Shown: positions 1,038-18,896 of the stretch, piece after piece
Layout: each line of letters starts with the position of its first letter
Numbering within the stretch: position 1 is the stretch's first letter
NCBI RefSeq assembly: GCF_029223285.1
Contig: NZ_JARHUJ010000009.1
Location: 248,001 to 312,000, forward strand
Origin: Paraflavitalea sp. CAU 1676
GTDB lineage: Bacteria; Bacteroidota; Bacteroidia; Chitinophagales; Chitinophagaceae
DNA length: 64,000 nt
Reading direction: 5' to 3'
Translations under genes and position numbers: made by a program
The notes under the pieces: generated by a model
The model's input: only the letters and a program-made list of their open reading frames with translations
The model's database searches: none
What the model was told of the DNA's origin: nothing

Positions 1038-1047
1038 TGGGGGAGTA

Positions 1048-1097
1048 AAAATAATAACCTATAATTTTGGTGGACTAATAAAAAGGCTGTAACCTTG
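1048..1097 (+). promoter_or_regulatory. Predicted promoter of the first SusC leader transcript
   Basis: A Bacteroidota-type promoter can be read: TTTG at 1066-1069, 20 bases, then TAACCTTG at 1090-1097 (one mismatch to TAnnTTTG). Upstream lie AAAAT at 1048-1052 and TAATTTTGG at 1062-1070, separated by 9 bases. The same words at the same spacing occur at 11487-11536 ahead of the second SusC leader. Transcription would start near 1104, placing the poly-Cys ORF at 1173 inside the leader. Confidence 0.5.
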
Positions 1098-1172
1098 TAA
1101 CTCCGGAAGCTTACAGGAAACAATTCCTTTACCAATAAATAAGCTTCGCGTCGGCACCAAAACACTGGAATA

Positions 1173-1229
1173 ATGCACCTGGGTAAGAAACATACACATT
1201 CTTGTTGTAGCAGCACTTGTTGTTGCTGA
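1173..1229 (+). CDS. Poly-cysteine leader peptide (18 aa) ahead of SusC operon 1
   Basis: A short ORF reads MHLGKKHTHSCCSSTCCC then TGA: five cysteines in the last eight residues, three of them just before the stop. It starts with ATG about 70 bases after the predicted transcription start and ends 286 bases before the SusC start. Cysteine is normally one of the rarest residues, so such a run is the mark of an amino-acid-sensing leader peptide, as for trp or his leaders and the poly-Cys leader ORFs described in mycobacteria. A second, unrelated-sequence leader with the same property precedes the next SusC gene at 11586-11693, which makes chance unlikely. Inference: low charged tRNA-Cys stalls the ribosome here and raises expression of the downstream sulfur-scavenging operon. 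Confidence 0.75.
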   Translation: MHLGKKHTHSCCSSTCCC

Positions 1230-1515
1230 TCCTTCCCGCGATTCCCTTGCCTCCCCTTACCGTACTTCTCAAACTCAAAGTTTTCCACCTAAAACATTAA
1301 AATCATTGTATGATTCCTGATACATCTTAGTTCGTTACAGTCAACTCTGTAGCAAACGATGTTCCAGCGTCCTTGCTATAGGTACATAAAATAAAGTGGG
1401 CCGAAGACTGTTCCAGCAGCTCCGGCCCGTAAAACAAGGCTTCAGGTAATGAATCATAACAGCTATCAGATAGCTGAATGACTGCCTCATTTTTAAAATA
1501 ACCAAAACAAAGATA
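1230..1515 (+). promoter_or_regulatory. Untranslated leader with several hairpins (possible attenuator)
   Basis: No gene is seen between the leader peptide and SusC. Three hairpins can be read. 1332-1359 pairs TCGTT with AACGA and ACAG with CTGT around a 4-base bulge. 1398-1428 pairs GGGCCG with CGGCCC. 1460-1476 pairs CAGCTAT with ATAGCTG around CAG, extended by TCAT/ATGA at 1454-1481, and is followed by TTTTT at 1490-1494 just before the SusC start. The last could be an intrinsic terminator or could mask translation start. The Cys codons contain TGCTG (1224-1228), complementary to CAGCA at 1414-1418 in the loop of the second hairpin. Which structures form in the cell is not known. Confidence 0.45.
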
Positions 1516-4500: not shown

Positions 4501-4785
4501 CAAACCTTCAGCATCCAGGGGCTGTATGTAGAACACGATCTCCATTGGATCAAGCTGAAAGATGTAAACCTTAGTTACGACCTGCCGGCAAACTGGCTCA
4601 AACCATTGAAGATATCTGCGGCCAGCGTTACGCTGACGGCGCGCAATTTCCTGCTCGCCACCAACTACACCGGTAGCGATCCCGATCTCGGCACCCGCAA
4701 TGGGCTCACCAACTATTCAGGCATCGACTTCTGGACCACCCCCAACACACACAGCCTGGGGGCAGCATTGAACATCACATTCTAA
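1516..4785 (+). CDS. SusC/RagA-type TonB-dependent outer membrane receptor (operon 1)
   Basis: This 1089-aa outer-membrane transporter has a signal peptide (1-22, ending NVTAQ), a carboxypeptidase-regulatory-like beta-sandwich (about 44-117, with GKVVEDRSATPLAGATVHI and SYVGYTAREI), the plug domain (about 122-240: LDEVVVTAVGIKR, GRIAGVQIS, LFILDGIPVDN, VLKGPAAAALYG) and a long beta-barrel ending in NITF. It should import a ligand captured by the SusD partner 17 bases downstream, using TonB energy. Length is normal for SusC. The nearby sulfatases indicate a sulfated ligand, but glycan, lipid or other cannot be decided. Expression is probably controlled through the leader with the poly-Cys ORF at 1173-1229. 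Confidence 0.93.
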   Translation: MKKAFNWMVLLPAALFFNNVTAQQRNDTIRTTGAEKGPVRNITFGGKVVEDRSATPLAGATVHIAGTTHEVITGPDGKFTFLTGQRLPVTLQISYVGYTAREINVTNEYTEISLQPGNSRLDEVVVTAVGIKRAAKALSYSVSEVKGKELVQSREANIVAALSGRIAGVQISNSGGSPGGSSTVKIRGNSSLLGSNAPLFILDGIPVDNSIQDIRTNITNGNSLATPSNRGIDINANDIASITVLKGPAAAALYGIRASNGAVVVNTKRGSALTSKKFAVNYSGSFTVDRINRRMQPRQTSFSNGIGGSYVVPGTAGSDENWGALIDTLTYSNQASNFDKNGAIVGKSNPLSNGKPVNRYNNIDNFFVNGYTSDHNISLYGNTGNAGYYFSYGNLKQTGIVPTTDFYRHTFRFNGDYTINEAFKLSGGINYIQDGAHNRALMGGFNTNSMRALINSAVNFDITNGYDEPWKHPESYKLPATAAKPWGDSRSFANGIGWDNPYWSLNMNPQSDQNNRFITFVEGNYDINSWLKATARYGIDNYTDVRKGAFSRGTSGIATGTVNDVVFQRRDNNLDILLTSRHELTNDLDLSVVAGYNYYSSFKNQVNTRGDGLTIPGNFNISNAASVQAVDYTIERKLVAGYADLKLDYKKWLFLELTGRNEWTSTLAKGKNSFFYPSAGASFIFTDAFRIASPIFNFGKLRVTAAQVGNDADPYSLLTYFNTTSTGGWIQSALSFPFNGQQGLSFSSTIGNPNLKPERISTYEVGTELHFNKSRTILDAVYYYNSSKDQIIPVSLPYATGAQFTLANAGNIINRGIEASLQQQLIRKKNLSWNATAIFSKNISKVKYITDDITNVSLGGIWMEARGQAGDPYGVFYGIDVKRNAAGKVIIDDNAGSSNYGYPVVNTAFTRIGDPNPDFSVGLRNEFKAGAFTFSFLLDGRFGFDIFNAPRLQMVFNGVDASTAARGTKTVFEGVTATKGETNTIPAELSQAWYRQTFSIQGLYVEHDLHWIKLKDVNLSYDLPANWLKPLKISAASVTLTARNFLLATNYTGSDPDLGTRNGLTNYSGIDFWTTPNTHSLGAALNITF

Positions 4786-4802
4786 AGGCAAACATTCCGA
4801 AC

Positions 4803-6296
4803 ATGAAAAAGAGTAGTATTACCAATATATTGAAACGTAGCGTTCTGGCAGCATCCGTGATCACGCTGGCAGGCTGCGATCTCACAGATACCAACAACAA
4901 CCCCAACGCATCCTCCGAAGTATCGGTCAGTGCGGTACTAACCGGAGCCGAAGTGGTGCTCGGATTTTCGCTGGGCGTAGATGCCGGCCTGGTAGCCAAC
5001 ATCTATATACAACAGGTGGCCGGCGCCAACGGCGATGCGGCGTCATTTGACAACTATACCACCTCGCCCGGATATTTCAACTCATCGTGGGCCAACTTCT
5101 ATACCAACGTGCTCGATGAATTGCAGATCGTACAGCGTACTGCCACGGCGCAGCAATTGCCCTACTATAGTGGCATTGCACGGGTGCTCACAGCGTACAG
5201 TTATGGCACGCTTACCGATTTGTTTGGAGACATACCTTACAAAGAAGCGCTCAATGGCAACAGCGTTACCAATCCCAAATACGATGGGCAGGCCGATATC
5301 TATAAAGACCTCCAGGCGCAGCTCGATACCGCCATCACCGAACTATCAAAGCCGGTGAGCGCCAACCTCGGCGCAACGCCTTTTACAGATGATGTTATCT
5401 TCAAAGGCAATATCGCCAACTGGCTCGCCACGGCCTACACGTTGAAAGCACGTTACGCCATCCACCTCAGCAAGGCCAATCCGCAGGAAGCCGCAAAGCA
5501 GGTATTGGCTGCTTTGTACAATGCAGGCGTGTATCGCGGCGTACCCAGCAATGCCGCCGATGCTCAGGTGGTATTCGGATCATCCGCCACCAACGCCAAC
5601 CCCTATTATCAGCAAAACACCTACCGTCCGGGCTGGATCGGGTTGGGCGCTTCCTTCGTCAACCTGCTCAACGGCAATAAGGTCACCGATGCACCCACCA
5701 CACCCGAAGGTCAAAACGTAGATCCGCGCAGGGCCTATTTTGCAACGCCCTCCAGCGGCACTACCTACCGGGGCAGTGCACCCGGTGTGCCCGGCGCCTT
5801 CTCGCGCATCGGAAGCTACTACGGAGCTGCCACGGCACCGGTTATCCTCATCAGCTATTCCGAAGCTAAGTTCCTCGAGGCAGAAGCAAGGAGCATCCTC
5901 AATCCCGCCGATCCATTGGCGCAAACAGCACTCGAGGCAGCGGTGAAAGCATCGTTCGCTAAAGTGATCAGCGGAACAGGCGATGCCTATGCAACACCGC
6001 AAAAACAAGCGGAGTACATAACGGCCAAGGCAACACTTACCGGCAATGCCACGAAAGACCTGGAAACCATCATCACGCAAAAGTACATCGCCCTCTTTCT
6101 GCAGCCCGAAGTATGGAGCGATTACCGGCGTACCGGATATCCCGCCATACCATTGGCGGCCAATGCCACACACAGCGCCAACCCGGCCGGCCAGATACCC
6201 CGCCGTATCCCGTACCCGCAAAGAGAGCAGTCGCTGAATAAGAACACGCCGGCCAACTCCACCTATCAGCAGCCTAAACTCTGGTGGGATCAATAG
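4803..6296 (+). CDS. SusD/RagB-family ligand-binding lipoprotein (SusD-like type 2)
   Basis: The 497-aa protein carries a lipoprotein signal (SVITLAGC, Cys24) and the helical SusD fold: early DTNNNPNASSEV, a TPR-like part around ARVLTAYSYGTLTDLFGDIPYKEAL (about 121-145), and the conserved C-terminal IPRRIPYPQREQSLNKNTPANS...KLWWDQ. The N-terminal pattern and the KLWW end fit the SusD-like_2 group. It caps the SusC barrel on the cell surface and binds the ligand. It follows SusC by 17 bases and precedes the sulfatase by 45. Confidence 0.92.
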   Translation: MKKSSITNILKRSVLAASVITLAGCDLTDTNNNPNASSEVSVSAVLTGAEVVLGFSLGVDAGLVANIYIQQVAGANGDAASFDNYTTSPGYFNSSWANFYTNVLDELQIVQRTATAQQLPYYSGIARVLTAYSYGTLTDLFGDIPYKEALNGNSVTNPKYDGQADIYKDLQAQLDTAITELSKPVSANLGATPFTDDVIFKGNIANWLATAYTLKARYAIHLSKANPQEAAKQVLAALYNAGVYRGVPSNAADAQVVFGSSATNANPYYQQNTYRPGWIGLGASFVNLLNGNKVTDAPTTPEGQNVDPRRAYFATPSSGTTYRGSAPGVPGAFSRIGSYYGAATAPVILISYSEAKFLEAEARSILNPADPLAQTALEAAVKASFAKVISGTGDAYATPQKQAEYITAKATLTGNATKDLETIITQKYIALFLQPEVWSDYRRTGYPAIPLAANATHSANPAGQIPRRIPYPQREQSLNKNTPANSTYQQPKLWWDQ

Positions 6297-6341
6297 CCGC
6301 AAAACTCTCAATCATCTCAAACACCATCAACGCAACAATTC

Positions 6342-8693
6342 ATGCAGCATATAATAAACAGCCAACACCTGCAGCGGCCCGCGAGGAAACTCGCGGTGCT
6401 GCTGTCGGTGGTAACTGCTACCGCACTACCAGCTATTTCGCAGCACAGTCCTGTGCCTCCTTTCAAAGGAAAAGTGGGCAAAACGATCGCCGAAACCAAA
6501 ATAGGTAATACCGTATTTAACCCCGTAGCACCAGCCGGGGCACCGAATATTGTATATGTATTGCTCGATGATGTAGGGTTCGGAGCCAGCAGCGCCTTCG
6601 GCGGATTGGTGGAAACACCCACCTTCGATAGTCTCGCCAACAACGGACTGCGCTACACCAATTTTCACACTACCGCCATCTGCTCGCCCACACGTGCCTC
6701 CCTGCTCACCGGCCGCAATCACCATTCGGTCAATGTGAATACGGTCATCGATGCGGCCGTTGATGTGCCCGGTCACAACGGATACATCCCCTTCGAGAAA
6801 GGAACAGCCGCAGAGATACTGCGCGAAAATGGGTACAACACATTTGCTGTGGGTAAATGGCATGTCACCCCTACACCCGACCTCACACCGGCAGGCCCCT
6901 TCAACAGGTGGCCCACCGGCCGTGGATTCGATCATTTCTATGGCTTCATGGCCGGCGAAACCGATCAGTACACACCCATGCTTTGGGAGAACACGCAGAA
7001 GATAGAGCCCGATCTTAAAGGCAAACACCTTACCACCGCGCTCGTTGATAAGGCGATTGAGTATATAGCCGGACAAAAATCTGCGGCCCCCAACAAACCT
7101 TTCTTTCTTTACCTCACGCCCGGCGCAACCCATGGTCCGCACCAGGTCGACAGGCAGTGGATCGACAAGTACAAAGGCCGTTTTGATGCAGGATGGGATA
7201 AATACCGCGAAGCGGTACTCGCCCGGCAAAAGGAATTAGGCATTGTGCCGAAGAACGTAACCCTGCCGGTACGCAACCCCGGTGTAAAGCCATGGGATTC
7301 GCTCTCTGCAATAGAGAAGAAAGTGTTCGCCCGATTCTTCGAAGCTTACGCAGGTTTTCTCACCCATACCGATTACGAAGTAGGTCGCCTGGTGAATTAC
7401 CTGAAAGAGATCAAACAACTCGACAATACACTCATCGTATTGATCATTGGTGACAACGGCGCCAGCAAAGAGGGCGGACTCACCGGCCATGCCATCGGCA
7501 TCAATGAATACATCGACGGCAGCGTGCACACGGAAAAGTATGAAGACCGCATCGCAGAGATCGCTAAGCGCTACGACGAAATAGGTAGTGCCAAGTCCGG
7601 ACCCAACTATCCGGCCGGATGGGCCCAGGCAGCCAACACGCCATTCCGCTACCTCAAGCAGGATGCCAACAGCGAAGGCGGCACCCGCAATCCGCTCATC
7701 ATCTTTTACCCCAAAGGCATCAAAGAGCGCGGCATCCGTACACAGTATTCGCATGTAAACAGTGTAACGCCTACGGTGCTGGATATCGCCGGGCTCACTG
7801 TGCCCAAAGTGATCAATGGCTATCAGCAGGATAGCCTCGAAGGCACTAGTCTGGCTTATACCATCGCCAACCCGGCAGCGCCCGGCAGGCACCATGTACA
7901 GTACTACGAAATATCCGGCGCCCGCGCCATTTACCAGGATGGATGGAAAGCACAGGTATACCACCAGTCGGGCAAATCATTCGCCCTCGACAAATGGGAG
8001 CTGTACAACCTCAACGAAGACTTCAATGAGCAGCGCGATCTGGCCGCATCACAGCCGGCCAAGCTGCAGCAACTGCAGGCGCTCTTCGAAGAAGAAGCCA
8101 TTAAATACAATCTCTATCCGCTGTTGGGCGATACCAGTGCCCGCAATTTCGCCACCTTAACCAAAGGGCCTTTCGATACCCGCATTCAGGCAATCCTGTA
8201 TCCCGGCGTTACACAACTTCCGTCAAGGGCCGCGCCATCCTTCTACCAGCATTCATTTACGCTAAAGGCAGAAGTGGAAATAACAAGCGCTTCAAACGAA
8301 GGCGTATTGCTGGCCGCGGGCGGTCGCTTTACGGGCCTCACGTTTTATGTACAGCAGGGTAAACTCAAAGTCGCGCACAACAACAATGGGAAGCTGGTGT
8401 ACCTCGAGTCAACCCAGCCACTGCCCACCGGCAAAGCCATCCTGCGCTACGATCTTGATTATGTGCCGGCAAAAGACCTCACCGATCCTGCGGGCACAGA
8501 AGCGCTGTATATCAATGATGTGAAGGTGGCAGAGCGCAAGATCACCAAGGCCGATGCTACCATACTTCCTTATGATGAAGGAGTGGATGTGGGGCGCGAC
8601 AACGCTTCACCGGTATCGCCACAATACCAATCACCATTCGTATTCACCGGCATCCTGCACCGCATCATAGTCGATCACAGAATTAAATTCTAA
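6342..8693 (+). CDS. Sulfatase (family S1, formylglycine type) with C-terminal extension
   Basis: This is a 783-aa exported sulfatase. After an N-terminal signal segment (about 16-33), the alkaline-phosphatase-like domain starts at APNIVYVLLDDVGFG (metal-binding Asp76/Asp77). The catalytic motif CSPTR with Cys114 lies in AICSPTRASLLTGR; Cys114 should be oxidised to formylglycine. Further conserved parts are GKWHVTP and IGDNGASKEGG (metal ligands Asp-Asn). The last about 170 residues (from about 615) form a beta-rich, laminin-G-like extension that is not part of the catalytic core and may bind ligand. It likely hydrolyses sulfate esters in the periplasm to release sulfate after SusCD uptake; the substrate is unknown. 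Confidence 0.9.
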   Translation: MQHIINSQHLQRPARKLAVLLSVVTATALPAISQHSPVPPFKGKVGKTIAETKIGNTVFNPVAPAGAPNIVYVLLDDVGFGASSAFGGLVETPTFDSLANNGLRYTNFHTTAICSPTRASLLTGRNHHSVNVNTVIDAAVDVPGHNGYIPFEKGTAAEILRENGYNTFAVGKWHVTPTPDLTPAGPFNRWPTGRGFDHFYGFMAGETDQYTPMLWENTQKIEPDLKGKHLTTALVDKAIEYIAGQKSAAPNKPFFLYLTPGATHGPHQVDRQWIDKYKGRFDAGWDKYREAVLARQKELGIVPKNVTLPVRNPGVKPWDSLSAIEKKVFARFFEAYAGFLTHTDYEVGRLVNYLKEIKQLDNTLIVLIIGDNGASKEGGLTGHAIGINEYIDGSVHTEKYEDRIAEIAKRYDEIGSAKSGPNYPAGWAQAANTPFRYLKQDANSEGGTRNPLIIFYPKGIKERGIRTQYSHVNSVTPTVLDIAGLTVPKVINGYQQDSLEGTSLAYTIANPAAPGRHHVQYYEISGARAIYQDGWKAQVYHQSGKSFALDKWELYNLNEDFNEQRDLAASQPAKLQQLQALFEEEAIKYNLYPLLGDTSARNFATLTKGPFDTRIQAILYPGVTQLPSRAAPSFYQHSFTLKAEVEITSASNEGVLLAAGGRFTGLTFYVQQGKLKVAHNNNGKLVYLESTQPLPTGKAILRYDLDYVPAKDLTDPAGTEALYINDVKVAERKITKADATILPYDEGVDVGRDNASPVSPQYQSPFVFTGILHRIIVDHRIKF

Positions 8694-8697
8694 CACC

Positions 8698-8823
8698 TTG
8701 ACACTGTCAGATGTATATCTCCTCATCCGCAAAATAACCGTAGGCGTCATCCTCGTGCTGATACCGCTGGCCCTCATCGCCGGTGGTATCTGGCTCGCCT
8801 GGCAAATCGTCAACAGATTGTAA
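8698..8823 (+). CDS. 41-aa membrane protein between sulfatase and hydroxylase
   Basis: A short ORF starts with TTG at 8698, only 4 bases after the sulfatase stop, and ends 19 bases before the hydroxylase gene. The product has a short polar start, a long hydrophobic helix (about residues 13-38, ITVGVILVLIPLALIAGGIW then LAW) and a polar NRL end, so one membrane span is predicted. It fills the gap between two operon genes exactly, which supports it being real. No family is recognised. The non-ATG start and short length are the weak points. Confidence 0.55.
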   Translation: MTLSDVYLLIRKITVGVILVLIPLALIAGGIWLAWQIVNRL

Positions 8824-8842
8824 ATCGTTAAACACATAAGTT

Positions 8843-9910
8843 ATGAGCAACGAAAAAAACACAGCTGCAAACATCAGGCGCGATGGCATCATTAGCCTGT
8901 TCATTTACATCACCCCTGTGGTGCTTATGTTCGCCTGGCTGGCAATAACCGATAGCAAACCCTGGCAGGGGGTAGCCACAGGCGAACTGCCATTTCGTAT
9001 GCCCGCTATCCTTGAAAAGGTATTTAAGAACCTGAACACCTGGGGCCTCCCCACCATAATGGTGGTAGTAGGGTTGGCGGAGTTTTTTATCGGCCTGTAC
9101 GAGAACAAGTGGACGAAGAACGAACGCATACTCGATATCGTTTGCTTCATCGTGCCCAAGATCGTCGTGCGGCCTGTCATCGCTTACTTTGGCTTAAAGT
9201 TCCTGCCGGTATTGCTGCCCGGCGCAAAGGGAGTCTTTGAGTGGATACCCTTCTGGTGGGGATTTCTCATCATCGCCGTGGCCGACGATCTCACGCAATA
9301 CTGGTACCATCGTCTGCACCACCAGGTATCCTGGCTCTGGCGATTCCATCGCACACACCACTCGGCGCCTTATATGGGCATGGCCATGGCCAGCCGGCAA
9401 AACATCATCTACACCATCTTCTTTTCTCAGATATACCTCACCACAACCTTAACCTATCTGGGGCTCGGCTATCCGGCATTATTTGTAACCGCCATCAAAT
9501 CGCTCATCACCACCGGAGCACACTCCAGCATAAAATGGGATAAGCCATTTTATACCGTCAAATGGCTTAAGCCCATCGGCTGGGTCATGGAACGCCTCAT
9601 CTCCACACCGGCAACGCATCATGCGCACCATGCGGATACATCGGGCGATGGGGTAGGGCACTACAAAGGCAACTTCGGCAATATGTTCTTCCTGTGGGAT
9701 ATCTTCTTTGGCACCGGCATCATCACGCGCAAGTATCCGGCGTCGTACGGGATCAAGCATTATCAGCACGAAGAATGGTATGCCCAGTTCCTGTGGCCGG
9801 TATTCAAATCGAAGAAAGAAGGAAGCGAACTCGCAGCCAATGGCCCCGAAGTGGGCGACCTGCCCGAAGCAACCACCCACGATATTATACCACAAACAAC
9901 CACCGCATAA
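8843..9910 (+). CDS. Sterol desaturase / fatty acid hydroxylase superfamily membrane protein
   Basis: This 355-aa integral membrane di-iron oxygenase has several hydrophobic helices (about 15-35, 65-85, 100-125, 140-160, 195-220) and the histidine clusters of the superfamily: HRLHH in QYWYHRLHHQ, HRTHH in FHRTHHSAPY, and HHAHH in ATHHAHHADT, with a further His near GHYKGNFGN. The family hydroxylates or desaturates lipid or sterol chains with molecular oxygen. Being inside a sulfatase/SusCD operon, it may act on a sulfated lipid or sterol, or on sulfonolipid synthesis typical of this phylum; both are inference. The C-terminal tail after about 325 is variable and charged. Confidence 0.88.
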   Translation: MSNEKNTAANIRRDGIISLFIYITPVVLMFAWLAITDSKPWQGVATGELPFRMPAILEKVFKNLNTWGLPTIMVVVGLAEFFIGLYENKWTKNERILDIVCFIVPKIVVRPVIAYFGLKFLPVLLPGAKGVFEWIPFWWGFLIIAVADDLTQYWYHRLHHQVSWLWRFHRTHHSAPYMGMAMASRQNIIYTIFFSQIYLTTTLTYLGLGYPALFVTAIKSLITTGAHSSIKWDKPFYTVKWLKPIGWVMERLISTPATHHAHHADTSGDGVGHYKGNFGNMFFLWDIFFGTGIITRKYPASYGIKHYQHEEWYAQFLWPVFKSKKEGSELAANGPEVGDLPEATTHDIIPQTTTA

Positions 9911-9914
9911 AACT

Positions 9915-11462
9915 ATGAGCAAGTACTCTTTTCATAAGCTGTCCATGTCGCTGCTTTGCATCGTGCCGGCCCTTATGGGGCAGGCACAGCAAACGCAGCC
10001 CGCAAAAGCGACCAAAACACGCCCCAACGTTATCATCATCTATGCCGATGACCTTGGGTGGAACCAGTTATCAACCTATGGCAACAAAAAAGTGCAAACC
10101 CCCAATATCGATGCGATCGGTAATGGAGGAGTAAAGTTCACACAGGCCTATGCCACGGCGCCTATCTGCTCGCCCTCCAGGGTGGGCTTGCTCACTGGCC
10201 GTTACCAGCAGCGATTCGGAGCCGAATTCCTGGTGCCCGAATTACAGTCGGTCGCAGTAACCGATCCCGAACTGATAGAGAAGATTAGGGTCGATGCCGT
10301 AGCCCGCAAAGCGGTGGCAGAAAAGGTAGATACTGCTGGCTACAAAGCGCTGCGCAAAGGCATCCCCGAATCGGAGCTGCTCATTGGCCAGTTGTTCAAG
10401 CAGGCAGGTTATGCAACCGGCGCCATCGGTAAATGGCATGTAGGCGAAGCCGATGGGCTGCAGCCCTGGAAGCGTGGATTCGATTATTACTACGGCACCC
10501 TCACCTGGGGTACTATCTATGCCAGCGTGCAGGATCCCAATATCCTCACAAAGTCATATCACTTTCACACAGCGCAGTCAAAGCTCACCCGCCGCGAAGG
10601 TTCCATTCAAATTACCCGCAATGGGCAGATCGTGGAAGAAACAGCCTACATCACCGATCGGATAGGGGAGGAAGCCGTCGGCTTTATCGATCAGCACAAG
10701 CAGGACCCCTTCTTCCTGTATGTGCCCTTCAATGCGCCGCACGATCCATTCCAGGCAAAGAAGGCCGACTTCGATAAGATCACTAGCACCACCGATACTA
10801 CCGAACGCATCTACCTAGCCATGATCGCATCACTCGATGAAGCAGTAGGACGTATTGTTAATAAGCTGAAGCAGGAAGGTCTCGAAGAAAATACGATCAT
10901 CTTCTTTGGTAGCGACAACGGTGGCGCCTCTTACACCAATCAAATGAGCAATGCACCGCTCAAAGGCGGAAAGCTCAGTCATTTCGAAGGAGGCATAAGA
11001 GTGCCGCTGTTGGCAAAGTATCCGGCAAAGATCAAAGCGGGCGCAACCTACGATTACCCGGTCAGCAACCTCGATATATTCGCTACGGCAGTACAGGCAG
11101 CGGGAGTGTCTTTGCCTGCCGATCGCATCTATGATGGCGTTGACCTCGTGCCCTATGTCAATAAGGCCAACACAGCACGTCCGCACGAAACGCTGTATTG
11201 GCGCAATGGTTATTCGAAAGCGGTACGCAAAGGCGATTGGAAGCTCTACATCAATGAGCGCAACAACAAAGTATTGTTGTACGATCTCGCTAGTGATCCG
11301 GGCGAACAACACGATCAGTCAGCCGCTAACCCCGCTAAAATAAAGGAATTGCAAACAGCCCTAAAACAATGGGAAAAGCAGCTCGCAAAGCCGCGCTGGC
11401 CATCATTGCGCAGTGAAGTAATAGGCGAACTCGCCGATGCCGGATATTATTTTCCTATCTAA
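9915..11462 (+). CDS. Sulfatase (family S1, formylglycine type)
   Basis: This is a 515-aa exported sulfatase. The ATG at 9915 is chosen because it gives a proper signal peptide (MSKYSFHKLSMSLLCIVPAL, cleavage near GQAQQ); the reading frame is open further upstream but that part overlaps the hydroxylase gene. The catalytic motif is CSPSR with Cys85 (TAPICSPSRVGLLTGRYQ). The core begins RPNVIIIYADDLGWNQLS, with GKWHVG and FFGSDNGGAS supplying other active-site residues. It is closer to N-acetylhexosamine-sulfatase-like members than to the first sulfatase, though substrate cannot be fixed. It ends the first operon. Confidence 0.9.
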   Translation: MSKYSFHKLSMSLLCIVPALMGQAQQTQPAKATKTRPNVIIIYADDLGWNQLSTYGNKKVQTPNIDAIGNGGVKFTQAYATAPICSPSRVGLLTGRYQQRFGAEFLVPELQSVAVTDPELIEKIRVDAVARKAVAEKVDTAGYKALRKGIPESELLIGQLFKQAGYATGAIGKWHVGEADGLQPWKRGFDYYYGTLTWGTIYASVQDPNILTKSYHFHTAQSKLTRREGSIQITRNGQIVEETAYITDRIGEEAVGFIDQHKQDPFFLYVPFNAPHDPFQAKKADFDKITSTTDTTERIYLAMIASLDEAVGRIVNKLKQEGLEENTIIFFGSDNGGASYTNQMSNAPLKGGKLSHFEGGIRVPLLAKYPAKIKAGATYDYPVSNLDIFATAVQAAGVSLPADRIYDGVDLVPYVNKANTARPHETLYWRNGYSKAVRKGDWKLYINERNNKVLLYDLASDPGEQHDQSAANPAKIKELQTALKQWEKQLAKPRWPSLRSEVIGELADAGYYFPI

Positions 11463-11486
11463 CCGGTTGACTTTTACAACCCTACT

Positions 11487-11536
11487 AAAATGGTAGGAAT
11501 TAATTTTGGGCGTAATATTTTACGCCCATATCTTTG
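11487..11536 (+). promoter_or_regulatory. Promoter of the second SusC leader with internal inverted repeat
   Basis: TTTG at 11505-11508, 20 bases, then TATCTTTG at 11529-11536 is an exact TAnnTTTG promoter. AAAAT at 11487-11491 and TAATTTTGG at 11501-11509 match the first leader promoter at identical spacing. An inverted repeat GGGCGTAA / TTACGCCC with a 4-base centre (11508-11527) fills the space between the two promoter elements, the classical place for a repressor operator. A second small dyad CCTAC/GTAGG spans 11481-11497 just upstream. Transcription would start near 11543. Confidence 0.65.
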
Positions 11537-11585: not shown

Positions 11586-11693
11586 ATGAGACAGATGCCT
11601 GCGTTGATGACTTTACTGACTGCACGACTGAAACACTCCTTTCATTCGAACATCCCGTCTTACAGTATTGCTCGTTGTTGTTGCTGTTGCTAA
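11586..11693 (+). CDS. Poly-cysteine leader peptide (35 aa) ahead of SusC operon 2
   Basis: This short ORF begins ATG about 43 bases after the predicted transcription start. The 35-aa product starts MRQMPALMTLLTARLKH and ends SIARCCCCC, followed directly by TAA. The last five sense codons are TGT TGT TGC TGT TGC. ATG codons at 11595 and 11607 are alternative starts and keep the Cys run. It ends 143 bases before SusC. Together with the unrelated-sequence 18-aa leader at 1173-1229, this supports cysteine-responsive control of both SusCD operons: only the terminal Cys run is shared, as expected when the codons rather than the peptide matter. Confidence 0.8.
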   Translation: MRQMPALMTLLTARLKHSFHSNIPSYSIARCCCCC

Positions 11694-11836
11694 TCAGCTG
11701 ACATACGAAAAGGTAAAGTGCTGCTAAGAACAGCACAGTACCCACATGGCCATAAAGGCGCCCCGCTGCGAAAACAAAGCCGGTCAGGCCTCCTTTTGCC
11801 AACATCTTACACATTTACACTCAATCATACAATACA
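11694..11836 (+). promoter_or_regulatory. Leader region with hairpin competing for the Cys-codon RNA
   Basis: No gene is seen. A hairpin GTGCTG (11718-11723) / CAGCAC (11731-11736) with a 7-base loop lies 25 bases after the leader stop. Its 3-prime arm CAGCA is also complementary to TGCTG at 11682-11686 inside the Cys codons, so the two pairings exclude each other, and a ribosome stalled at the Cys run would favour the 11718-11736 hairpin. GC-rich stretches near 11756-11771 and 11785-11800 could form further structures. No classical U-tract terminator is obvious, so control of translation or Rho-dependent termination is also possible. Confidence 0.4.
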
Positions 11837-14800
11837 ATGAAGAGGATCATTGCCCTCTGGGCTATCATTATTGCATTGCCTGTTGCCCTCACAGCGCAAA
11901 CGCGCATCATCCGGGGCACGGTACTCGATAAAAGTGGCAACCAGCCGCTCAACGGGGTCACCGTACAGGCATCGGGAGTTGCTGCCAGCACCGACGCTGG
12001 TGGAAACTTCTCCATCGCAGTATCAACCAATACACTGCTCACCTTTTCTTACATCGGTTATGCCACACAACAGGCCAAAGCCGATACCTTGCGCGAAAGC
12101 ATTACCGTATGGCTGTCAGCCACGGACAATTCGCTCGATGCAGTCGTGGTAACGGCACTCGGTATATCCAAGCAAAAGAAATCATTGGGTTACGCAACCC
12201 AGGAGTTGAAAGCAAAAGATATCTCCGAAGCTAAAGAAGCCAACGTGGTCAACGCACTGGCCGGTAAAATAGCCGGTGTCCGCGTCACCAATACACAGGG
12301 CGATATGGGATCATCCCGTATAGTGATCCGTGGAGAAACTTCTATTGCCAACAACAACCAGCCACTCTTTATCGTAGATGGCGTTCCGGTCGATAACTCG
12401 CAACTGGGAGCCGGTGGCTCACGCGATTACCGCAATGCCATCGCCGACCTCAACTCCGAAGATATTGAGAACATAAGTGTGCTGAAAGGCCCCAACGCAG
12501 CAGCCCTCTATGGCTCACGCGCTGCCCATGGCGTTATCCTCATCAAAACAAAGACCGGTAAAAGCCGCAATGGAATTGGGGTAACGCTCAACTCCAATAC
12601 TACTTTCTCCAGCGTCAACATCCTGCCCGGGTATCAGAATGTATTTGGTCAGGGTGCCGAAGGCAAGTTCAGCTATGTGGATGGTAAAGGCGGTGGTATC
12701 AACGATGGGGTCGATGAAAGCTGGGGTCCAAAACTCGATGGCCGCCTCATACCGCAATTCTATTCCAACGGCGTGCCTGTTCCCTTTGTAGCGCACCCTG
12801 ATAATGTGAAGGATTACTTCAAGACTGGTGTGTTGCTCAGCAACAGCATCTCCCTCGATGGCGCCGGCGATAAATACAATTACCGCGTATCATTCAACAA
12901 TGAAAAGCAATGGGGCATAGTACCCAATAGCGAAGCGGGTAAAAACAATGTATCCTTCAACGGAACATTCGAAGTAGCGCCCAAACTGAAACTCGGCGTC
13001 GGTGCCAATTACATCGTAACCGATGCGCCCAACCTGCCAGGCGCAGGCGGCCGTCGTGCAACCAGCACCATGCTGCAGTTTACCTGGTTCGGTCGCCAGG
13101 TCGATATCAACCAGCTGCGCAATTACAAAGATGCCAACGGCAACACCTTCAACTGGAACAATAGTTACTACAGCAACCCATACTGGGTGGCATATGAAAA
13201 TACCGTAAGCCAGCGCCGCAATCGCTTCATCGGTAATCTTAACCTTACCTATGACATCACCGACGGACTCTCCTTTAACTTCCGCACCGGTAGCGATTAC
13301 TACAATGATAAGCGTAAATCGAAGATCGCCTACGGCACCAATGGAACACCCTTCGGTTCTTACCAGGAAACCAACTACATCGTAAACGAGAACAATACCG
13401 AAGCAACCCTGCGTTATAACAGGGAGATCGGCAGCGACTTCACGCTCGATGTACTGGCCGGTGGCAACGTACGCACCAAAACATATGAAGAGAACGATCA
13501 GCAGGCGCCCCGTCTGGCAGTAGCGGGCGTATACACGCTCACCAATTCTCGCGATCCGCTCATCTCCTCCAATTATTATTCGAAGCTGCGGGTATACAGT
13601 GCCTATGCATCAGCACAGCTGGGTTACCGCAACTGGGCCTTCCTTAACCTCACAGCCCGTAATGACCGGTCATCTACCTTGCCCAGTCAAAACCTGTCTT
13701 ATTTCTACCCATCTGTCAACGCCAGTGTGGTGTTAACAGATGCCCTTGATATCAAGAGCAATGTCCTCAGCTTCCTGAAGGTGCGCGGTGGTTGGTCCGA
13801 AGTAGGTGCCGATGCCGATCCCTATCAGCTCATCAATACCTACAATTTCAACGCACCTTACAATGGCAATCCGCAGTTAACGACCAGCGGCGTTGACCTC
13901 AATCCCAACCTCAAATCCGAAAGCACCAATTCAACTGAAATTGGCATAGAGGCGGCTTTGTTCAATAACCGCGTTCGCATCGATGCGAGTTTGTACAATA
14001 CCAACAGCGTCGATCAGATCCTCCGCGTAGATGTAAGCTCTACCACCGGTTATACCCAAAAACTGCTCAATGCCGGTAAGATCAATAACAAGGGGATTGA
14101 ACTGCAATTAGGCATCACCCCGGTTAAGTTGAAAGACTTCCGCTGGGATATCGACCTCAACTATGCAGCCAACCGCAGCAAGCTCGAGTACCTCGATGAA
14201 GCGCAAACCCTGAAGAACTATGTGCTCGGAACTTACCGCAACCTGCAGGTGCTGGCTACCGTGGGTAAGGCCTACGGCACCCTGTTTGGTAATGCTTACC
14301 TGCGCGATGCAAATGGTAATATTGTTGTAAACAACAGCGGCATCCCACTGGCCAGCCCTACCAAGAAAGTGTTGGGTAAATACACCCCCGATTGGATCGG
14401 AGGCATTACCAACAGCTTTACCTATAAGCAGTTCAATCTTTCCTTCCTCATCGATGCCAGCATTGGCGGATCGCTCTTTGCAGGCACCAACTCAACAGGT
14501 AGCTATACCGGCGTGCTCGCGCTCACCCTGCCCGGCCGCGATGCCGATCATGGAGGCTTGAACTACTACTATCCCAATAATGATAAGTCCAAAGGAACAG
14601 TGGCCCTGCCCAAAGGTGGCGCCGCACCCAACGGAGAAGCAGTGTATGAAGATGGTATGATCTATAAAGGAGTTACCCAGGCCGGTGCTGCCAACACAAC
14701 CATCATTCCAGCCTCACAGTATTACAAAGCATCCCGCAACATCGAAGAGGAATATGTGTACAGCGCATCGTATGTGAAGTTCCGCGAGCTGAAGTTCGGT

Positions 14801-15007
14801 TACAATATCCCCCGCAACTGGATCAAAAAGATCGGACTCACCGGCGCCACCATCAGCCTCGTAGGCCGCAACCTTTGGATCATCCATAAGGATGTGCCCA
14901 ATATCGATCCGGAAACGGCCTTCACCAGCGGCAATGCACAAGGTTTGGAAGACCTTACCCTGCCCACCACGCGCAGCTATGGCTTCAACATCAACGTAAA
15001 ATTCTAA
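11837..15007 (+). CDS. SusC/RagA-type TonB-dependent outer membrane receptor (operon 2)
   Basis: This is a 1056-aa transporter with signal peptide (1-21, LPVALTAQT), carboxypeptidase-regulatory-like domain (about 25-98: IIRGTVLDKSGNQPLNGVTV, FSYIGYATQ), plug domain (about 103-220: LDAVVVTALGISKQKK, GKIAGVRVTNTQG, LFIVDGVPVDN, VLKGPNAAALYG) and a barrel ending in INVKF. It is a paralog of the operon 1 SusC but clearly divergent, so it probably takes up a different ligand. Its SusD partner starts 11 bases downstream. A poly-Cys leader ORF lies in the 5-prime untranslated region. Confidence 0.93.
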   Translation: MKRIIALWAIIIALPVALTAQTRIIRGTVLDKSGNQPLNGVTVQASGVAASTDAGGNFSIAVSTNTLLTFSYIGYATQQAKADTLRESITVWLSATDNSLDAVVVTALGISKQKKSLGYATQELKAKDISEAKEANVVNALAGKIAGVRVTNTQGDMGSSRIVIRGETSIANNNQPLFIVDGVPVDNSQLGAGGSRDYRNAIADLNSEDIENISVLKGPNAAALYGSRAAHGVILIKTKTGKSRNGIGVTLNSNTTFSSVNILPGYQNVFGQGAEGKFSYVDGKGGGINDGVDESWGPKLDGRLIPQFYSNGVPVPFVAHPDNVKDYFKTGVLLSNSISLDGAGDKYNYRVSFNNEKQWGIVPNSEAGKNNVSFNGTFEVAPKLKLGVGANYIVTDAPNLPGAGGRRATSTMLQFTWFGRQVDINQLRNYKDANGNTFNWNNSYYSNPYWVAYENTVSQRRNRFIGNLNLTYDITDGLSFNFRTGSDYYNDKRKSKIAYGTNGTPFGSYQETNYIVNENNTEATLRYNREIGSDFTLDVLAGGNVRTKTYEENDQQAPRLAVAGVYTLTNSRDPLISSNYYSKLRVYSAYASAQLGYRNWAFLNLTARNDRSSTLPSQNLSYFYPSVNASVVLTDALDIKSNVLSFLKVRGGWSEVGADADPYQLINTYNFNAPYNGNPQLTTSGVDLNPNLKSESTNSTEIGIEAALFNNRVRIDASLYNTNSVDQILRVDVSSTTGYTQKLLNAGKINNKGIELQLGITPVKLKDFRWDIDLNYAANRSKLEYLDEAQTLKNYVLGTYRNLQVLATVGKAYGTLFGNAYLRDANGNIVVNNSGIPLASPTKKVLGKYTPDWIGGITNSFTYKQFNLSFLIDASIGGSLFAGTNSTGSYTGVLALTLPGRDADHGGLNYYYPNNDKSKGTVALPKGGAAPNGEAVYEDGMIYKGVTQAGAANTTIIPASQYYKASRNIEEEYVYSASYVKFRELKFGYNIPRNWIKKIGLTGATISLVGRNLWIIHKDVPNIDPETAFTSGNAQGLEDLTLPTTRSYGFNINVKF

Positions 15008-15018
15008 ACAGAACGATC

Positions 15019-16461
15019 ATGACAAAGCATATATACAGGCTCCTGCTCGCAGCATTCACCCTCAGCGTGGCTGCCTCCTGCAAAAAGGACCTTACGGAGA
15101 TCAATAAGAATCCCAATGCGGCCGAGAATCCGCAGCCGGATTACCTGCTCACCGCCGCACAGAAATTAACGGCTGATGTATATTGGGGAGCCGATAACAA
15201 TTTCAACAGCACCCTGCTCATCATACAGCACTGGGCCAAAATACAGTATACCGAGCCCGACAGGTATATCTTCACTAATAGCAGCTTTACGTCGCTGTGG
15301 AATACAGGGTATGCTACCAGCATCACCAACCTCAATGCCATCATAAAGCTGCCCGATGGAAAAGCCAACGCCAATTACAAGGCCGTGGCCACCATCCTGC
15401 GGTCCTGGGTATTTAGCCTGCTCGCCGATGCGTATGGTAACATTCCTTACCAGCAGGCAGGTAACCTCAGCACCTATTTTACGCCGGAATACAATACCCA
15501 GAAAGATGTCTATTTTGGCTTACTCGATGAGTTGAAGGCTGCCGGCAACAACCTGAATGCCACTGCCGGAACCATAGCCGGTGATATCATATACGGTGGT
15601 AAAATTGACCGTTGGAAGAAGTTTGCCAACGCCTTGCGCCTCCGGATTGCCCTGCGCATCGCCGACCGCGAATCCGAAAAAGCCAAAGAGGTTATCAATG
15701 AAGTGTTAAATAATGCGGGTGGACTCATCGCTACTGTAGACGAAGCTGCCCGCTTTGCGTACACGACACCGCCTCAGCAAAACCCCGTTGGCGCGTGGTT
15801 CGATACAAGAGATGATTTTAGAATAGGTAAAACCCTGGTCGACAAACTCTATGCGCTCAATGATCCCCGTCTTCCCATCTTCGCCAACAAACCAACCGAT
15901 CAAACTGTTACTAACTACGTCGGCGTACCCAGCGGCCTCACCAACAGCGATGCCAATAACCTGGGGTTCGCCAAAACGTCTAAGCCCGGATCTTACTTTT
16001 ATGCGGCCACAGCACCAGCGGTGATCCAGAGTTATGCAGAAGTATTGTTTTCCCGGGCCGAAGCGGCGGCGAGGCAGTTCACAACAGAGAACGCCGAAGA
16101 TCTTTACAAGCAGGCCATCAAAGCGTCTTTCAACCAGTATGGCATTACCGATGCCACGGTGATCGGCAACTATACGGCACAGGCAACAGTCGCGTTCGAT
16201 GCCGGCAACTTTAAGAAGTCGATCGGTGAGCAAAAGTGGATCGCGCTCTTCGGTCAGGGTCTTGAAGCGTTTGCTGAGTGGAGAAGGCTCGACTATCCCC
16301 AGCTCACAGCAGGGGCGGCCGGTACGCTCGATGGAAAGATACCAGTACGGTTCATTTATCCTGGTTCCGAGCAGGCGCTCAATGGTGACAATTACAAAAA
16401 AGCCATCGATAACCAGGGAACAGATAATCTGGTAACCAAATTGTGGTACGATAGGTATTAG
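15019..16461 (+). CDS. SusD/RagB-family ligand-binding lipoprotein (operon 2)
   Basis: The 480-aa lipoprotein has the lipobox SVAASC (Cys21), the conserved start TEINKNPNAAENPQPDYLLTAAQKL, a TPR-like region with LLADAYGNIPYQQA (about 134-147), the WALFGQG-like helix EQKWIALFGQGLEAFAEWRRLDYP, and the C-terminal IPVRFIYPGSEQALN ... KLWYDRY that marks the SusD-like_2 group. It binds ligand on the cell surface for the SusC encoded 11 bases upstream. Confidence 0.92.
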   Translation: MTKHIYRLLLAAFTLSVAASCKKDLTEINKNPNAAENPQPDYLLTAAQKLTADVYWGADNNFNSTLLIIQHWAKIQYTEPDRYIFTNSSFTSLWNTGYATSITNLNAIIKLPDGKANANYKAVATILRSWVFSLLADAYGNIPYQQAGNLSTYFTPEYNTQKDVYFGLLDELKAAGNNLNATAGTIAGDIIYGGKIDRWKKFANALRLRIALRIADRESEKAKEVINEVLNNAGGLIATVDEAARFAYTTPPQQNPVGAWFDTRDDFRIGKTLVDKLYALNDPRLPIFANKPTDQTVTNYVGVPSGLTNSDANNLGFAKTSKPGSYFYAATAPAVIQSYAEVLFSRAEAAARQFTTENAEDLYKQAIKASFNQYGITDATVIGNYTAQATVAFDAGNFKKSIGEQKWIALFGQGLEAFAEWRRLDYPQLTAGAAGTLDGKIPVRFIYPGSEQALNGDNYKKAIDNQGTDNLVTKLWYDRY

Positions 16462-16509: not shown

Positions 16510-16532
16510 TAAGACGCCTTAATGGCGTCTTA
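16510..16532 (+). other. Intercistronic hairpin between susD and tlpA-like gene
   Basis: A perfect 9-bp stem TAAGACGCC / GGCGTCTTA with a 5-base loop sits 49 bases after the susD stop and 32 bases before the thioredoxin gene start. No T-run follows, so it is more likely a processing or stability element, or a weak terminator setting the level of the last gene, than a full terminator. Confidence 0.5.
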
Positions 16533-16563
16533 TGCAATAGATAAACGACTTACCAAAAGAAGT

Positions 16564-17808
16564 ATGAAGAAGTTATTACTGATAGCAAGCCTCATCGCAT
16601 TCGCAGGTGCTACACAAGCGGCTCCGGTAAAGAATGCAGAACTGAAGCCCGGCACCTGGAAAGGGGTCATACAGCGGCCCGATGGGGAGCAGATCGTGTT
16701 CAATTTCGAAGTAAAGCCTGTTAACGGCAAGAAAGTACTGTATGTGCTGAATGCCTCCGAGCGCTTGCTGGTCGATGATATTCGCCAGCAGGGCGATTCC
16801 CTGTGGATCAGCATGCCGTTCTTCGATGCGCATTTTGCAACGGTCATCAAGAGCAATGGCAGCCTCGAAGGCAAGTACATCAAGATAAGCGGAGAACGTC
16901 GTTTTGAGATACCCTTCTTTGCCCTGCCCGGCAACAAGGAGCGCTATCCCATATCGCCCAAAACCAAATACAAGGTAGCCGGCCGTTGGGATGTAACCTT
17001 CGGCGAAGGCAAAGACGCCTCCAAGGCAGTGGGTGAGTTTCAGCAGGGCGTCAATGGAAAAGTGACCGGCACCTTCCTCACGCCAACCGGCGACTATCGT
17101 TATCTGGAAGGGGGCATTGAGAAAGATACCCTGCGCCTGTCGGCATTCGATGGCAGCCACGTGTACCTGTTCAAGGCAAAGCTCGATAACGACAGCACCA
17201 TAACGCAGGCAACCTTCTATGCAGGCGGAGCCGGCAAAGAAGCCTGGGTGGCCAACAAAGATGCCAATGCAAAACTGCCTGATGGGTTCTCTGCAGTAAA
17301 GTTGCGCGCCGGCGAAAACAAGCTCAATTTCCGCTTCCCTGCCACCACGGGCGAGCAAATAGGCATAGCCGATGATCGGTTTAAGAACAAAGTGGTCGTG
17401 ATCCAGATACTGGGTTCCTGGTGCCCCAATTGTATGGACGAAACAAAATTCCTGGTCGACTATTACAAGAAGAACAAGCAAAGAGGCGTAGAAGTGGTCG
17501 GACTGGCATACGAACGTTCCACCGATTTCGAGAAGTCTAAAACAGCACTGGCTACCTTCCAAAAGCGACTGGGCGTAAACTATCCCTTCCTGGTTACTAC
17601 AGCAGCGGTATCCGATCCAAAGCGTACGGAGAAAACACTGCCGCAGATAGAGCCCCTGCAGGGATTCCCTACTACCATTTTTATTGATAAGAAAGGTAAC
17701 GTAAGGAAAATACATACCGGTTATGATGGGCCGGCAACCGGGCAACACCATGAAGAGTTCAAGAAGGAGTTTGAAGGGCTCATCAATGAATTGCTCACAG
17801 AAGAGTAA
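16564..17808 (+). CDS. TlpA-type thioredoxin-fold protein, secreted
   Basis: This 414-aa exported protein has a signal peptide MKKLLLIASLIAFAGATQAA. Residues about 25-250 form a beta-rich domain seen in Bacteroidota thioredoxin-like proteins, and the thioredoxin fold follows (about 265-410) with the redox motif WCPNC (Cys287, Cys290) and a cis-Pro loop in GFPTTIFIDKKGN. The ATG at 16564 is preferred over one 42 bases upstream because the upstream part overlaps the hairpin and delays the signal peptide. It should act in periplasmic thiol-disulfide exchange. As last gene of the operon under a poly-Cys leader, it may protect or reduce thiols or assist maturation of the uptake system; that is inference. 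Confidence 0.87.
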   Translation: MKKLLLIASLIAFAGATQAAPVKNAELKPGTWKGVIQRPDGEQIVFNFEVKPVNGKKVLYVLNASERLLVDDIRQQGDSLWISMPFFDAHFATVIKSNGSLEGKYIKISGERRFEIPFFALPGNKERYPISPKTKYKVAGRWDVTFGEGKDASKAVGEFQQGVNGKVTGTFLTPTGDYRYLEGGIEKDTLRLSAFDGSHVYLFKAKLDNDSTITQATFYAGGAGKEAWVANKDANAKLPDGFSAVKLRAGENKLNFRFPATTGEQIGIADDRFKNKVVVIQILGSWCPNCMDETKFLVDYYKKNKQRGVEVVGLAYERSTDFEKSKTALATFQKRLGVNYPFLVTTAAVSDPKRTEKTLPQIEPLQGFPTTIFIDKKGNVRKIHTGYDGPATGQHHEEFKKEFEGLINELLTEE

Positions 17809-17828: not shown

Positions 17829-17876
17829 AACCCTTTTGTCATCCGCTCACGGGCATTGACAAAAGGGTTTTTCTTT
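17829..17876 (+). terminator. Intrinsic terminator of operon 2
   Basis: A perfect 12-bp stem AACCCTTTTGTC / GACAAAAGGGTT (17829-17840 and 17858-17869) is followed by TTTTTCTTT. It closes the SusCD-thioredoxin unit. Confidence 0.9.
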
Positions 17877-17903
17877 GCCATTTTCTTCTTATTTTGGTAC
17901 TCT

Positions 17904-18896
17904 ATGAGTACTTATCAACCAGCCGTTAATCGTTACGAACAAATGCAATACCGCCGCTGCGGAAAAAGCGGCATTCAATTGCCTGCCATATCACTCGGGC
18001 TCTGGCACAATTTCGGGCACGTGGATGTGCTCGAAAATTCAAGGGCCATCCTGCGCCTCGCATTCGATAATGGGATCACCCATTTCGACCTGGCCAACAA
18101 CTACGGACCACCTCCCGGATCAGCCGAAGAGAACTTTGGTAAGATCCTCAAAGAAGACTTCGCCGGCTACCGAGATGAACTGATCATTTCATCCAAAGCC
18201 GGGTATACCATGTGGGCCGGTCCTTATGGAGACTGGGGCTCCAAAAAATACCTGGTGGCCAGTCTCGATCAAAGTCTTAAGCGCATGGGGCTCGATTATG
18301 TAGATATCTTTTACCATCACCGGCCCGATCCCAATACACCGCTCGAAGAAACCATGGGCGCACTCGATCTTATCGTGCGGCAGGGCAAAGCCCTGTATGT
18401 GGGCATCTCTAATTACCCGGCCGACGAGGCGCGTAAAGCAATTACTCTGTTGCGCGAAATGGGAACGCCTTGTCTGATACACCAGCCTAAGTATTCCATG
18501 TTTGTTCGTTGGGTAGAGGAGGGGTTGCTCGATGTGCTGGGAGAAGAAGGAGTGGGTTGTATACCCTTCTCGCCATTGGCACAGGGGCTGCTCACCAATA
18601 AATACCTCAAGGGCATACCAGCCGATTCTCGCGCAGCCAAGGCGCATGGCTTCCTCAAGGAAGAAGAAGTAACGCCGCAGCGCGTTGGTCAGATACAGCA
18701 GCTGAATGAAATAGCGGTGCAGCGCAATCAGTCACTGGCGCAAATGGCGCTGGCCTGGTTGTTGAAAGATGATCGGGTAACATCTGTGTTGATCGGGGCC
18801 AGCAGCCCGGCACAGTTGGCCGATTCATTGCAGTGCATCAAAAGCAAGCCATTTACCAGCGATGAGCTGGAGCGAATAGAGAAGATATTGAAGTAG
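17904..18896 (+). CDS. Aldo/keto reductase, glyceraldehyde-3-phosphate reductase (YghZ)-like
   Basis: This 330-aa NADPH-dependent oxidoreductase of the AKR superfamily shows the full catalytic set: Asp and Tyr in HFDLANNYGPPPGSAEENFG, Lys in IISSKAGY, and His in DIFYHHRPDP. The NADPH site near the C-terminus reads VLIGASSPAQLADSL. The sequence is close to the L-glyceraldehyde 3-phosphate reductase/YghZ group. ATG at 17904 (MSTYQPAVNRYEQ) is chosen; the frame is open to 17856 but that part lies in the upstream terminator. Confidence 0.9.
   Translation: MSTYQPAVNRYEQMQYRRCGKSGIQLPAISLGLWHNFGHVDVLENSRAILRLAFDNGITHFDLANNYGPPPGSAEENFGKILKEDFAGYRDELIISSKAGYTMWAGPYGDWGSKKYLVASLDQSLKRMGLDYVDIFYHHRPDPNTPLEETMGALDLIVRQGKALYVGISNYPADEARKAITLLREMGTPCLIHQPKYSMFVRWVEEGLLDVLGEEGVGCIPFSPLAQGLLTNKYLKGIPADSRAAKAHGFLKEEEVTPQRVGQIQQLNEIAVQRNQSLAQMALAWLLKDDRVTSVLIGASSPAQLADSLQCIKSKPFTSDELERIEKILK

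Follow-up and report, generated by a model that had tools for sequence, protein, structure and literature searches.

Gene content of the two susCD operons and their leader ORFs

The window, that is, the whole 64-kb stretch of Paraflavitalea sp. CAU 1676 DNA that was analysed, contains two operons that each begin with a susC and a susD-like gene (Table 1). Ahead of the second susC lies leader ORF 2, a short reading frame whose last five sense codons (TGT TGT TGC TGT TGC, 11676-11690) all encode cysteine and are followed by TAA; the ATG of susC 2 (11837) stands 143 nt 3' of it. Direct reading of the DNA confirmed the frame, the five Cys codons at its end, and its place ahead of the second susC, all of which had been described in a first-pass annotation made from the sequence. 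The count of only two susC genes in the window was likewise correct: two plug-domain matches fell in it among the 150 of 191 candidates scored, and the scan of the other window ORFs of at least 600 amino acids returned no receptor. Leader ORF 1 is separated from susC 1 by 286 nt. According to the domain scan, operon 1 encodes two sulfatases and operon 2 none.

Table 1. Features of the two window operons and SAM riboswitch-leader tandems in related loci.
Feature	Position	Strand	Remarks
Palindromic operator candidate, operon 1	1054-1078		PWM score 21.4, outside training set; overlaps putative -33 element
Leader ORF 1	1173-1229	+	MHLGKKHTHSCCSSTCCC, stop; leaders at like place in L226 and L227
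susC, operon 1	1516-4785	+	Domain scan
susD-like, operon 1	4803-6296	+	Domain scan
Sulfatase, operon 1	6342-8693	+	PF00884
Fatty-acid-hydroxylase-family protein, operon 1	8843-9910	+	PF04116
Second sulfatase, operon 1	9915-11462	+	PF00884; start inferred, ORF open from 9708
Palindromic operator candidate, operon 2	11477-11501		Core CCTAC-N7-GTAGG (11481-11497); PWM score 20.8, site in training set
Promoter candidate, operon 2	11505-11536	+	TTTG 11505-11508, TATCTTTG 11529-11536; from sequence and TAnnTTTG scan
Leader ORF 2	11586-11693	+	35 codons, MRQMPALMTLLTARLKHSFHSNIPSYSIARCCCCC, stop; five terminal Cys codons, read directly
RNA from leader ORF 2 stop to susC 2 start	11694-11836	+	Hairpin GTGCTG..CAGCAC 11718-11736
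susC (TonB-dependent receptor), operon 2	11837-15007	+	Pfam Plug, CarbopepD_reg_2
susD-like, operon 2	15019-16461	+	SusD-like_2
Redoxin/AhpC-TSA-domain protein, operon 2	16522-17808	+	Domain scan
Aldo/keto reductase, operon 2	17856-18896	+	Domain scan; start codon uncertain
SAM riboswitch and Cys-rich leader	L003 7523-7620
SAM riboswitch and Cys-rich leader, cysH loci	L172 2509-2652; L185 2523-2638	-

Bacteroidetes promoters have the consensus TTTG, a spacer of about 20 nt, and TAnnTTTG. A candidate of this form lies ahead of leader ORF 2, and the TAnnTTTG scan found no match between the stop of the leader and susC 2. Given this candidate and the end of the upstream gene at 11462, leader ORF 2 would be cotranscribed with susC 2, and with the -7 element ending at 11536 and the leader ATG at 11586, the transcript is predicted not to be leaderless. 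In operon 2, an inverted repeat (TGGGCGTAATATTTTACGCCCA, 11507-11528) lies in the spacer that separates the -33 element from the -7 element; it was not recognized by eye in two related loci, L008 and L010. Codon-position bias between leader ORF 2 and its counterpart in L008 is weak: they differ at 5 first, 8 second, and 10 third codon positions.

Of the named relatives found, Paraflavitalea pollutisoli is the closest, with 87% in the best segment of SusC 2. At the third and fourth places of operon 2, L008 and L010 carry ORFs that are similar in size and start. In the Paraflavitalea locus L008 (6715-8001), the second susC directly follows ORFs resembling those at 64-1037 of the window. In the window, operon 1 separates such ORFs from the second susC (within 64-11462), so that this operon, Cys leader included, looks inserted.

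Recurrence of Cys-codon leaders at receptor and sulfate-assimilation genes

Of 191 candidate plug domains in the genome, 150 were scored, all of which matched, and the upstream DNA of these 150 receptor genes was analysed. An ATG ORF ending in at least three Cys codons and a stop within 400 nt upstream was present at 3 of the 150; shuffling each region 30 times with dinucleotide frequencies preserved gave an expectation of 0.00. The same three genes were recovered when the run of at least three Cys codons was allowed to end up to two codons short of the stop in an ATG ORF within 700 nt. They are the two window susC genes and a receptor gene (C3:264563) that adjoins the sulfate-assimilation operon. 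A relaxed rule, three Cys in the last eight codons, gave 4 of 150 against 1.05 expected, and the additional receptor (C4:197659) may well be a chance match. The comparison with shuffled sequences that the first-pass annotation had proposed therefore places terminal Cys runs far above the shuffle rate and bears out its view that the runs before both susC genes are very unlikely to be chance; leader ORF 2 is real. Such runs, present at 3 of the 150 receptors analysed, are not general to susC leaders.

A scan of 1.94 of the 8.84 Mb of the genome, a nonrandom sample chosen around receptor genes, operator matches, and four-Cys matches, found ten ORFs that end in at least three Cys codons, five of them flagged as lying outside long ORFs. 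One of these five falls within a receptor gene truncated at the end of an analysed stretch; the remaining four are both window leaders, the leader of cysH, and that of the receptor next to the cys operon. Across the whole genome, four TGY codons followed by TRA occur at 12 places, versus 3 for the pattern read backwards, and three TGY codons followed by TRA at at least 125 places versus at least 41 for the backwards control, among the matches listed.

The cysH leader of this genome (MLHTIAMQYNTISYCYNYCCCC and a stop) lies on C3, 67 nt ahead of a cysH-cysD-cysN-cobA-cysJ-cysI-cysG cluster. NCBIfam assigned the members as cysH, cysD, cysN, uroporphyrinogen-III methyltransferase, cysJ (a match below the cut-off), cysI, and a protein with the siroheme-synthase N-terminal domain. 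The receptor with the third leader (MMQYQYTHIQPYYYLAPISTLSRCCC and a stop) is downstream of the cluster. This arrangement is a link between the leaders and cysteine supply that does not depend on the argument from susC. Upstream of the cluster, on the same strand, is a gene with an FGE-sulfatase domain (Pfam); its NCBIfam matches were all below the cut-off, with GldK the best, and it may or may not act in sulfatase activation.

CysH was found in 95 of 147 genomes of the family, and leaders were counted at the best 50 of 98 places, in sets of 30 and 20; the filter required three or more of the last eight codons to be Cys. A Cys leader was detected at 21 of the first 30 cysH loci, with 0.46 expected from shuffles; the same filter applied to other residues at these loci returned 6 for Leu and 0 to 2 for the rest. 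The next 20 loci gave 12, so that 33 of these best 50 of 98 carry a Cys-rich leader and 17 carry none by the filter. Outside the family, 3 of 20 hand-picked cysH loci have a leader. One of the three is weak (MMMCCRCW); another, at L201 in a different family of the same order, ends in seven Cys (NPCCCCCCC and a stop) and lies 156 nt before cysH.

The first-pass annotation held that the Cys codons, not the peptide, are conserved. This is the case across the cysH loci, where the non-Cys part of the peptide varies between genera; the leaders use both TGT (95) and TGC (50), which indicates that the amino acid and not the nucleotide letters is conserved. It needs qualifying for true orthologues, whose leaders retain some peptide similarity (L188, L189, and L008). 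At susC 1 homologues, the leader is present in three of three loci, our own included, and at close susC 2 homologues (at least 59% identity, own locus included) in 6 of 11. Among 15 relatives of susC 2, a run of at least three Cys near the leader stop occurs in L003, L005 (497 nt away from susC), L008, and L010, and two Cys occur in L004 and L009; no Cys run was found in the remaining nine, L013 and L014 of these offering less than 350 nt of upstream DNA. By eye, Cys is sparse at two of the five close susC 2 loci that are negative by the filter (L196 and L197), and a single Cys is present at a third (L195). L003 and L191 have an identical leader and are probably one genome.

It is very improbable that the Cys runs are a product of chance, a nucleotide motif, or part of a working Cys-rich microprotein with a metal or redox function. 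The runs are interrupted in some leaders (CCSSTCCC, CCCCNTCCNC), as might be seen in a metal-binding peptide. However, no fixed spacing or flanking residues could be recognized by eye between loci, the expectation from shuffles is near zero, both Cys codons are in use, and the leaders stand directly ahead of the operon.

Palindromic operator candidate and SAM riboswitch

A 25-bp palindrome, about TTAGTCTAC-N7-GTAGACTAA, is found at the promoter of both window operons. It was scored with a first PWM of 11 sites, four of them from our own genome, for which the maximum in a reversed 1.94-Mb control was 18.8, and with a relatives-only PWM of seven sites, for which the control maximum was 18.0. The relatives-only PWM scored the operon 1 site at 22.4 and the operon 2 site at 17.8, just under its control maximum. 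Seven of the 150 receptor genes reach at least 20 with the first PWM, and six exceed 18.0 with the relatives-only PWM, by which the next receptor after operon 2 scores 14.3. By the relatives-only PWM, leader and operator are moderately associated in the receptors of this genome: the six of 150 that score higher than the control include two of the three leader genes (p 0.004).

The palindrome extends to related loci. Operator candidates scoring at least 18 were present at all 11 close susC 2 orthologues, three of them at 18.0 to 18.5 and so below the 18.8 control maximum; at five of the 11 the operator is kept and the filter finds no leader. Two more distant susC 2 homologues, at 41 to 42% identity, have neither leader nor operator. 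A match of at least 16 accompanies 24 of 30 cysH loci in the first set and 15 of 20 in the second, and 20 of the first 30 exceed 18.0 with the relatives-only PWM. Other matches lie at a metN-like gene and at an operon with an SfnG/alkanesulfonate-monooxygenase-like gene (both names being the best NCBIfam assignments, below the cut-off), at the FGE-domain gene (18.0, weak), and at further receptor genes; some are beside genes with no evident sulfur role, such as a zinc carboxypeptidase.

The presence of the operator candidate at both window operons and at most cysH loci points to a DNA-binding regulator. The overall reading of the first-pass annotation is therefore supported in part: conservation of the Cys codons holds up and a single signal for the two operons is likely, but its statement that they lack a dedicated regulator protein is not supported. 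Rrf2 was considered as the regulator and rejected; three genes were over the cut-off and one below it, and no operator score above 6.4 was obtained within about 1.5 kb to either side of them.

In three loci, L003, L172, and L185, a SAM riboswitch (RF00162) is located upstream of the Cys leader and in the same direction. Riboswitch and operator are both present in L003. In L172 and L185, which belong to one genus, no operator score above 5.2 was obtained in 1.45 kb upstream, as if the operator had been replaced by the riboswitch. The cysH loci L180, L183, and L187 have a nearby SAM riboswitch on the opposite strand, with cysH on the minus strand and the riboswitch on the plus strand in L183 and L187. 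The 64-kb window itself gave no match to known RNA families at gathering scores.

Gene content links operon 1 (sulfatases) and the third receptor (beside the cys operon) to sulfur; operon 2 is linked through its leader and operator only, and a role for it in sulfur supply is presumed on that basis. Because the same leaders precede sulfate-assimilation genes across the family, it is likely that both window operons respond to one cysteine signal, as the first-pass annotation had proposed.

RNA downstream of the leaders and possible modes of attenuation

Judging from the sequence comparisons, leader ORF 2 is very probably a cis-acting, Cys-responsive attenuator of susCD. Short ORFs with Cys codons stand ahead of supply genes, with operon 2 counted as such by its presumed role, and the codons rather than the peptide are kept; the structured RNA downstream of leader ORF 2 slightly lowers our confidence. 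In the proposed scheme, transcription from the promoter candidate would begin about 40 nt ahead of the leader ATG. When cysteinyl-tRNA is abundant, the leader would be completed, the ribosome would be released at the stop, and susCD would be kept low. When cysteinyl-tRNA is scarce, the ribosome would stall on the Cys codons at the stop and cover the downstream RNA, and susCD would be turned on. A second input would come at the promoter from the palindromic operator, the presumed binding site of a sulfur regulator. Leaders and operator together would mark a sulfur regulon comprising sulfate assimilation and several outer-membrane uptake operons.

The RNA that follows the leaders has an unusual composition. 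Over the 50 nt that follow the stop codon, C is more frequent than G in 31 of 31 leaders versus 57% of 116 control ORF ends, and the G fraction is 0.114 versus 0.197 (p ~1e-8), the controls coming from one genome and the leaders from many; in a replication set, C exceeds G after 9 of 10 leaders. The minimum free energy per nucleotide is -0.051 after 21 cysH leaders versus -0.128 for the 150 receptor upstream regions. Leader ORF 1 follows the same trend in base composition (C 22, G 4 in 50 nt), and a rho gene is present in the genome. Between leader and susC, no intrinsic terminator was found on the plus strand in either window operon. Pairing of the Cys codons with downstream RNA looked good by eye in leader ORF 2 and the first-susC leaders but was rejected as a general feature, only 2 of 34 leaders reaching p < 0.05 against shuffles, with a p of 0.98 for leader ORF 2 (for L165 the test used a different ORF from that in the leader count). 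Unstructured RNA with C over G, the lack of general pairing, the lack of a terminator, and the rho gene together favor Rho for the cysH leaders and leader ORF 1. Loading of Rho on the RNA after the stop, in the manner of tnaC, may be the likeliest step at the cysH leaders, at about even odds.

This argument is weak for leader ORF 2, after which the RNA is structured and C is about equal to G (12 and 11 in the first 50 nt); only the final 60 nt of the gap are rich in C (C 19, G 6). The gap RNA folds at -30.7 kcal/mol (z -1.68). The six susC 2 leaders as a group have a mean G fraction of 0.16 after the stop and a mean folding z of -1.36, versus +0.41 for the 21 cysH leaders. A Rho-dependent step at leader ORF 2 is accordingly put at appreciably less than even, and at this leader there is little to choose between Rho and translational attenuation.

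In translational attenuation, the stalled ribosome would expose the susC or cysH start region or permit reinitiation, and no transcription termination would be involved; we regard this as a serious, if less than even, possibility. The structured RNA after leader ORF 2 leaves room for it. The 21 cysH leaders of the first set all end 36 to 74 nt before the cysH start (8 to 117 nt in the second set), and the fold predicted for L176 has its leader paired with the RNA immediately ahead of cysH (pairing p 0.11). The mycobacterial polycysteine ORFs discussed in passages of PMC9031893 and PMC13236596 offer a precedent. Against it stand the lack of general pairing between the Cys-codon region and downstream RNA, at leader ORF 2 in particular, and the long gaps at the window operons.

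Classical trp-type attenuation with an intrinsic terminator appears unlikely. Hairpins follow several susC 2 leaders, as the folding scores above and the window hairpin at 11718-11736 attest, and a hairpin at 1398-1428 (GGGCCG..CGGCCC), between leader ORF 1 and susC 1, is kept by eye in L226 and L227. Mutually exclusive antiterminator and terminator structures were not found, however: the plus strand of the window operons lacks a terminator-like site between leader and susC, complementarity to the Cys codons is not general, and the cysH gap is short and unstructured.

In Escherichia coli tnaC, a ribosome stalled at the end of the leader shields the Rho site. The Rho-dependent scheme set out here resembles it in that a stalled ribosome at the leader end is proposed to shield a Rho site, but the arrest at tnaC is a response of the nascent peptide to free Trp, whereas here a shortage of charged tRNA-Cys would be the likely cause. 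Leader peptides with Cys codons have been described for cys operons of Mycobacterium and Propionibacterium and for cbs of Bifidobacterium (PMC1262725); no conserved terminator hairpin is reported for them, and the authors suggest Rho, as in tna. These actinobacterial leaders are alike in being short ORFs with a Cys-codon run near the stop ahead of cys genes; the present ones differ in belonging to another phylum, in also preceding SusCD operons, and in being accompanied by the operator candidate or a SAM riboswitch. Leaderless polycysteine small ORFs of Mycobacterium smegmatis, in which contiguous Cys codons are likewise found, mediate experimentally demonstrated cysteine-responsive attenuation of the genes downstream (Canestrari 2020, as cited in PMC13236596, PMC9031893, and PMC9094748), whereas leader ORF 2 has a predicted transcription start about 40 nt before its ATG. 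The uORFC-8-2 motif ahead of cysS in Rhodobacterales also has tandem Cys codons in an upstream ORF; as described in PMC8632094, it differs from leader ORF 2 in having two Cys, usually at positions 14 and 15, two stems with a terminator-like U run, and a different gene. For Flavobacterium psychrophilum and Bacteroides thetaiotaomicron, the literature contains general mentions of leader-peptide attenuation. No report of Cys-codon leaders on SusCD operons was found in the open-licence literature, outside of which most subscription journals lie; the occurrence in Bacteroidota, the location on SusCD operons, and the combination with a SAM riboswitch or an operator candidate appear to be new.

We tentatively suggest, at somewhat less than even confidence, that the Chitinophagaceae have a sulfur regulon in which a Cys-codon leader serves as a movable second checkpoint, working with an operator or SAM riboswitch and placed separately on sulfate assimilation and SusCD operons, so that TonB-dependent uptake would be set by the charge of tRNA-Cys, through Rho in at least some cases.

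SusCD operons are mostly regarded as carbohydrate systems under sensor proteins. A ribosome-based cysteine signal before a few of them would mark receptors for sulfur supply, and Cys leaders would be a cheap way to pick sulfur receptors from a genome in which the receptor genes number at least 150. They would also offer a system for testing Rho-dependent attenuation in Bacteroidota.

Three minor observations may be added. A third sulfatase gene of the window, at 25631-27151, has no operator match of at least 16 nearby. An operator-like palindrome at 50435-50459, with a score equal to the control maximum (18.8), is followed after 72 nt by a gene for an aldo/keto reductase (50507) and marks either a further regulon member or a chance match. 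The top operator score in the scanned genome DNA (G000 C12:1012788, locus L027) lies ahead of a leader-like ORF ending in SCCR and a stop and of a PhyH dioxygenase gene, possibly a sulfur-scavenging operon.
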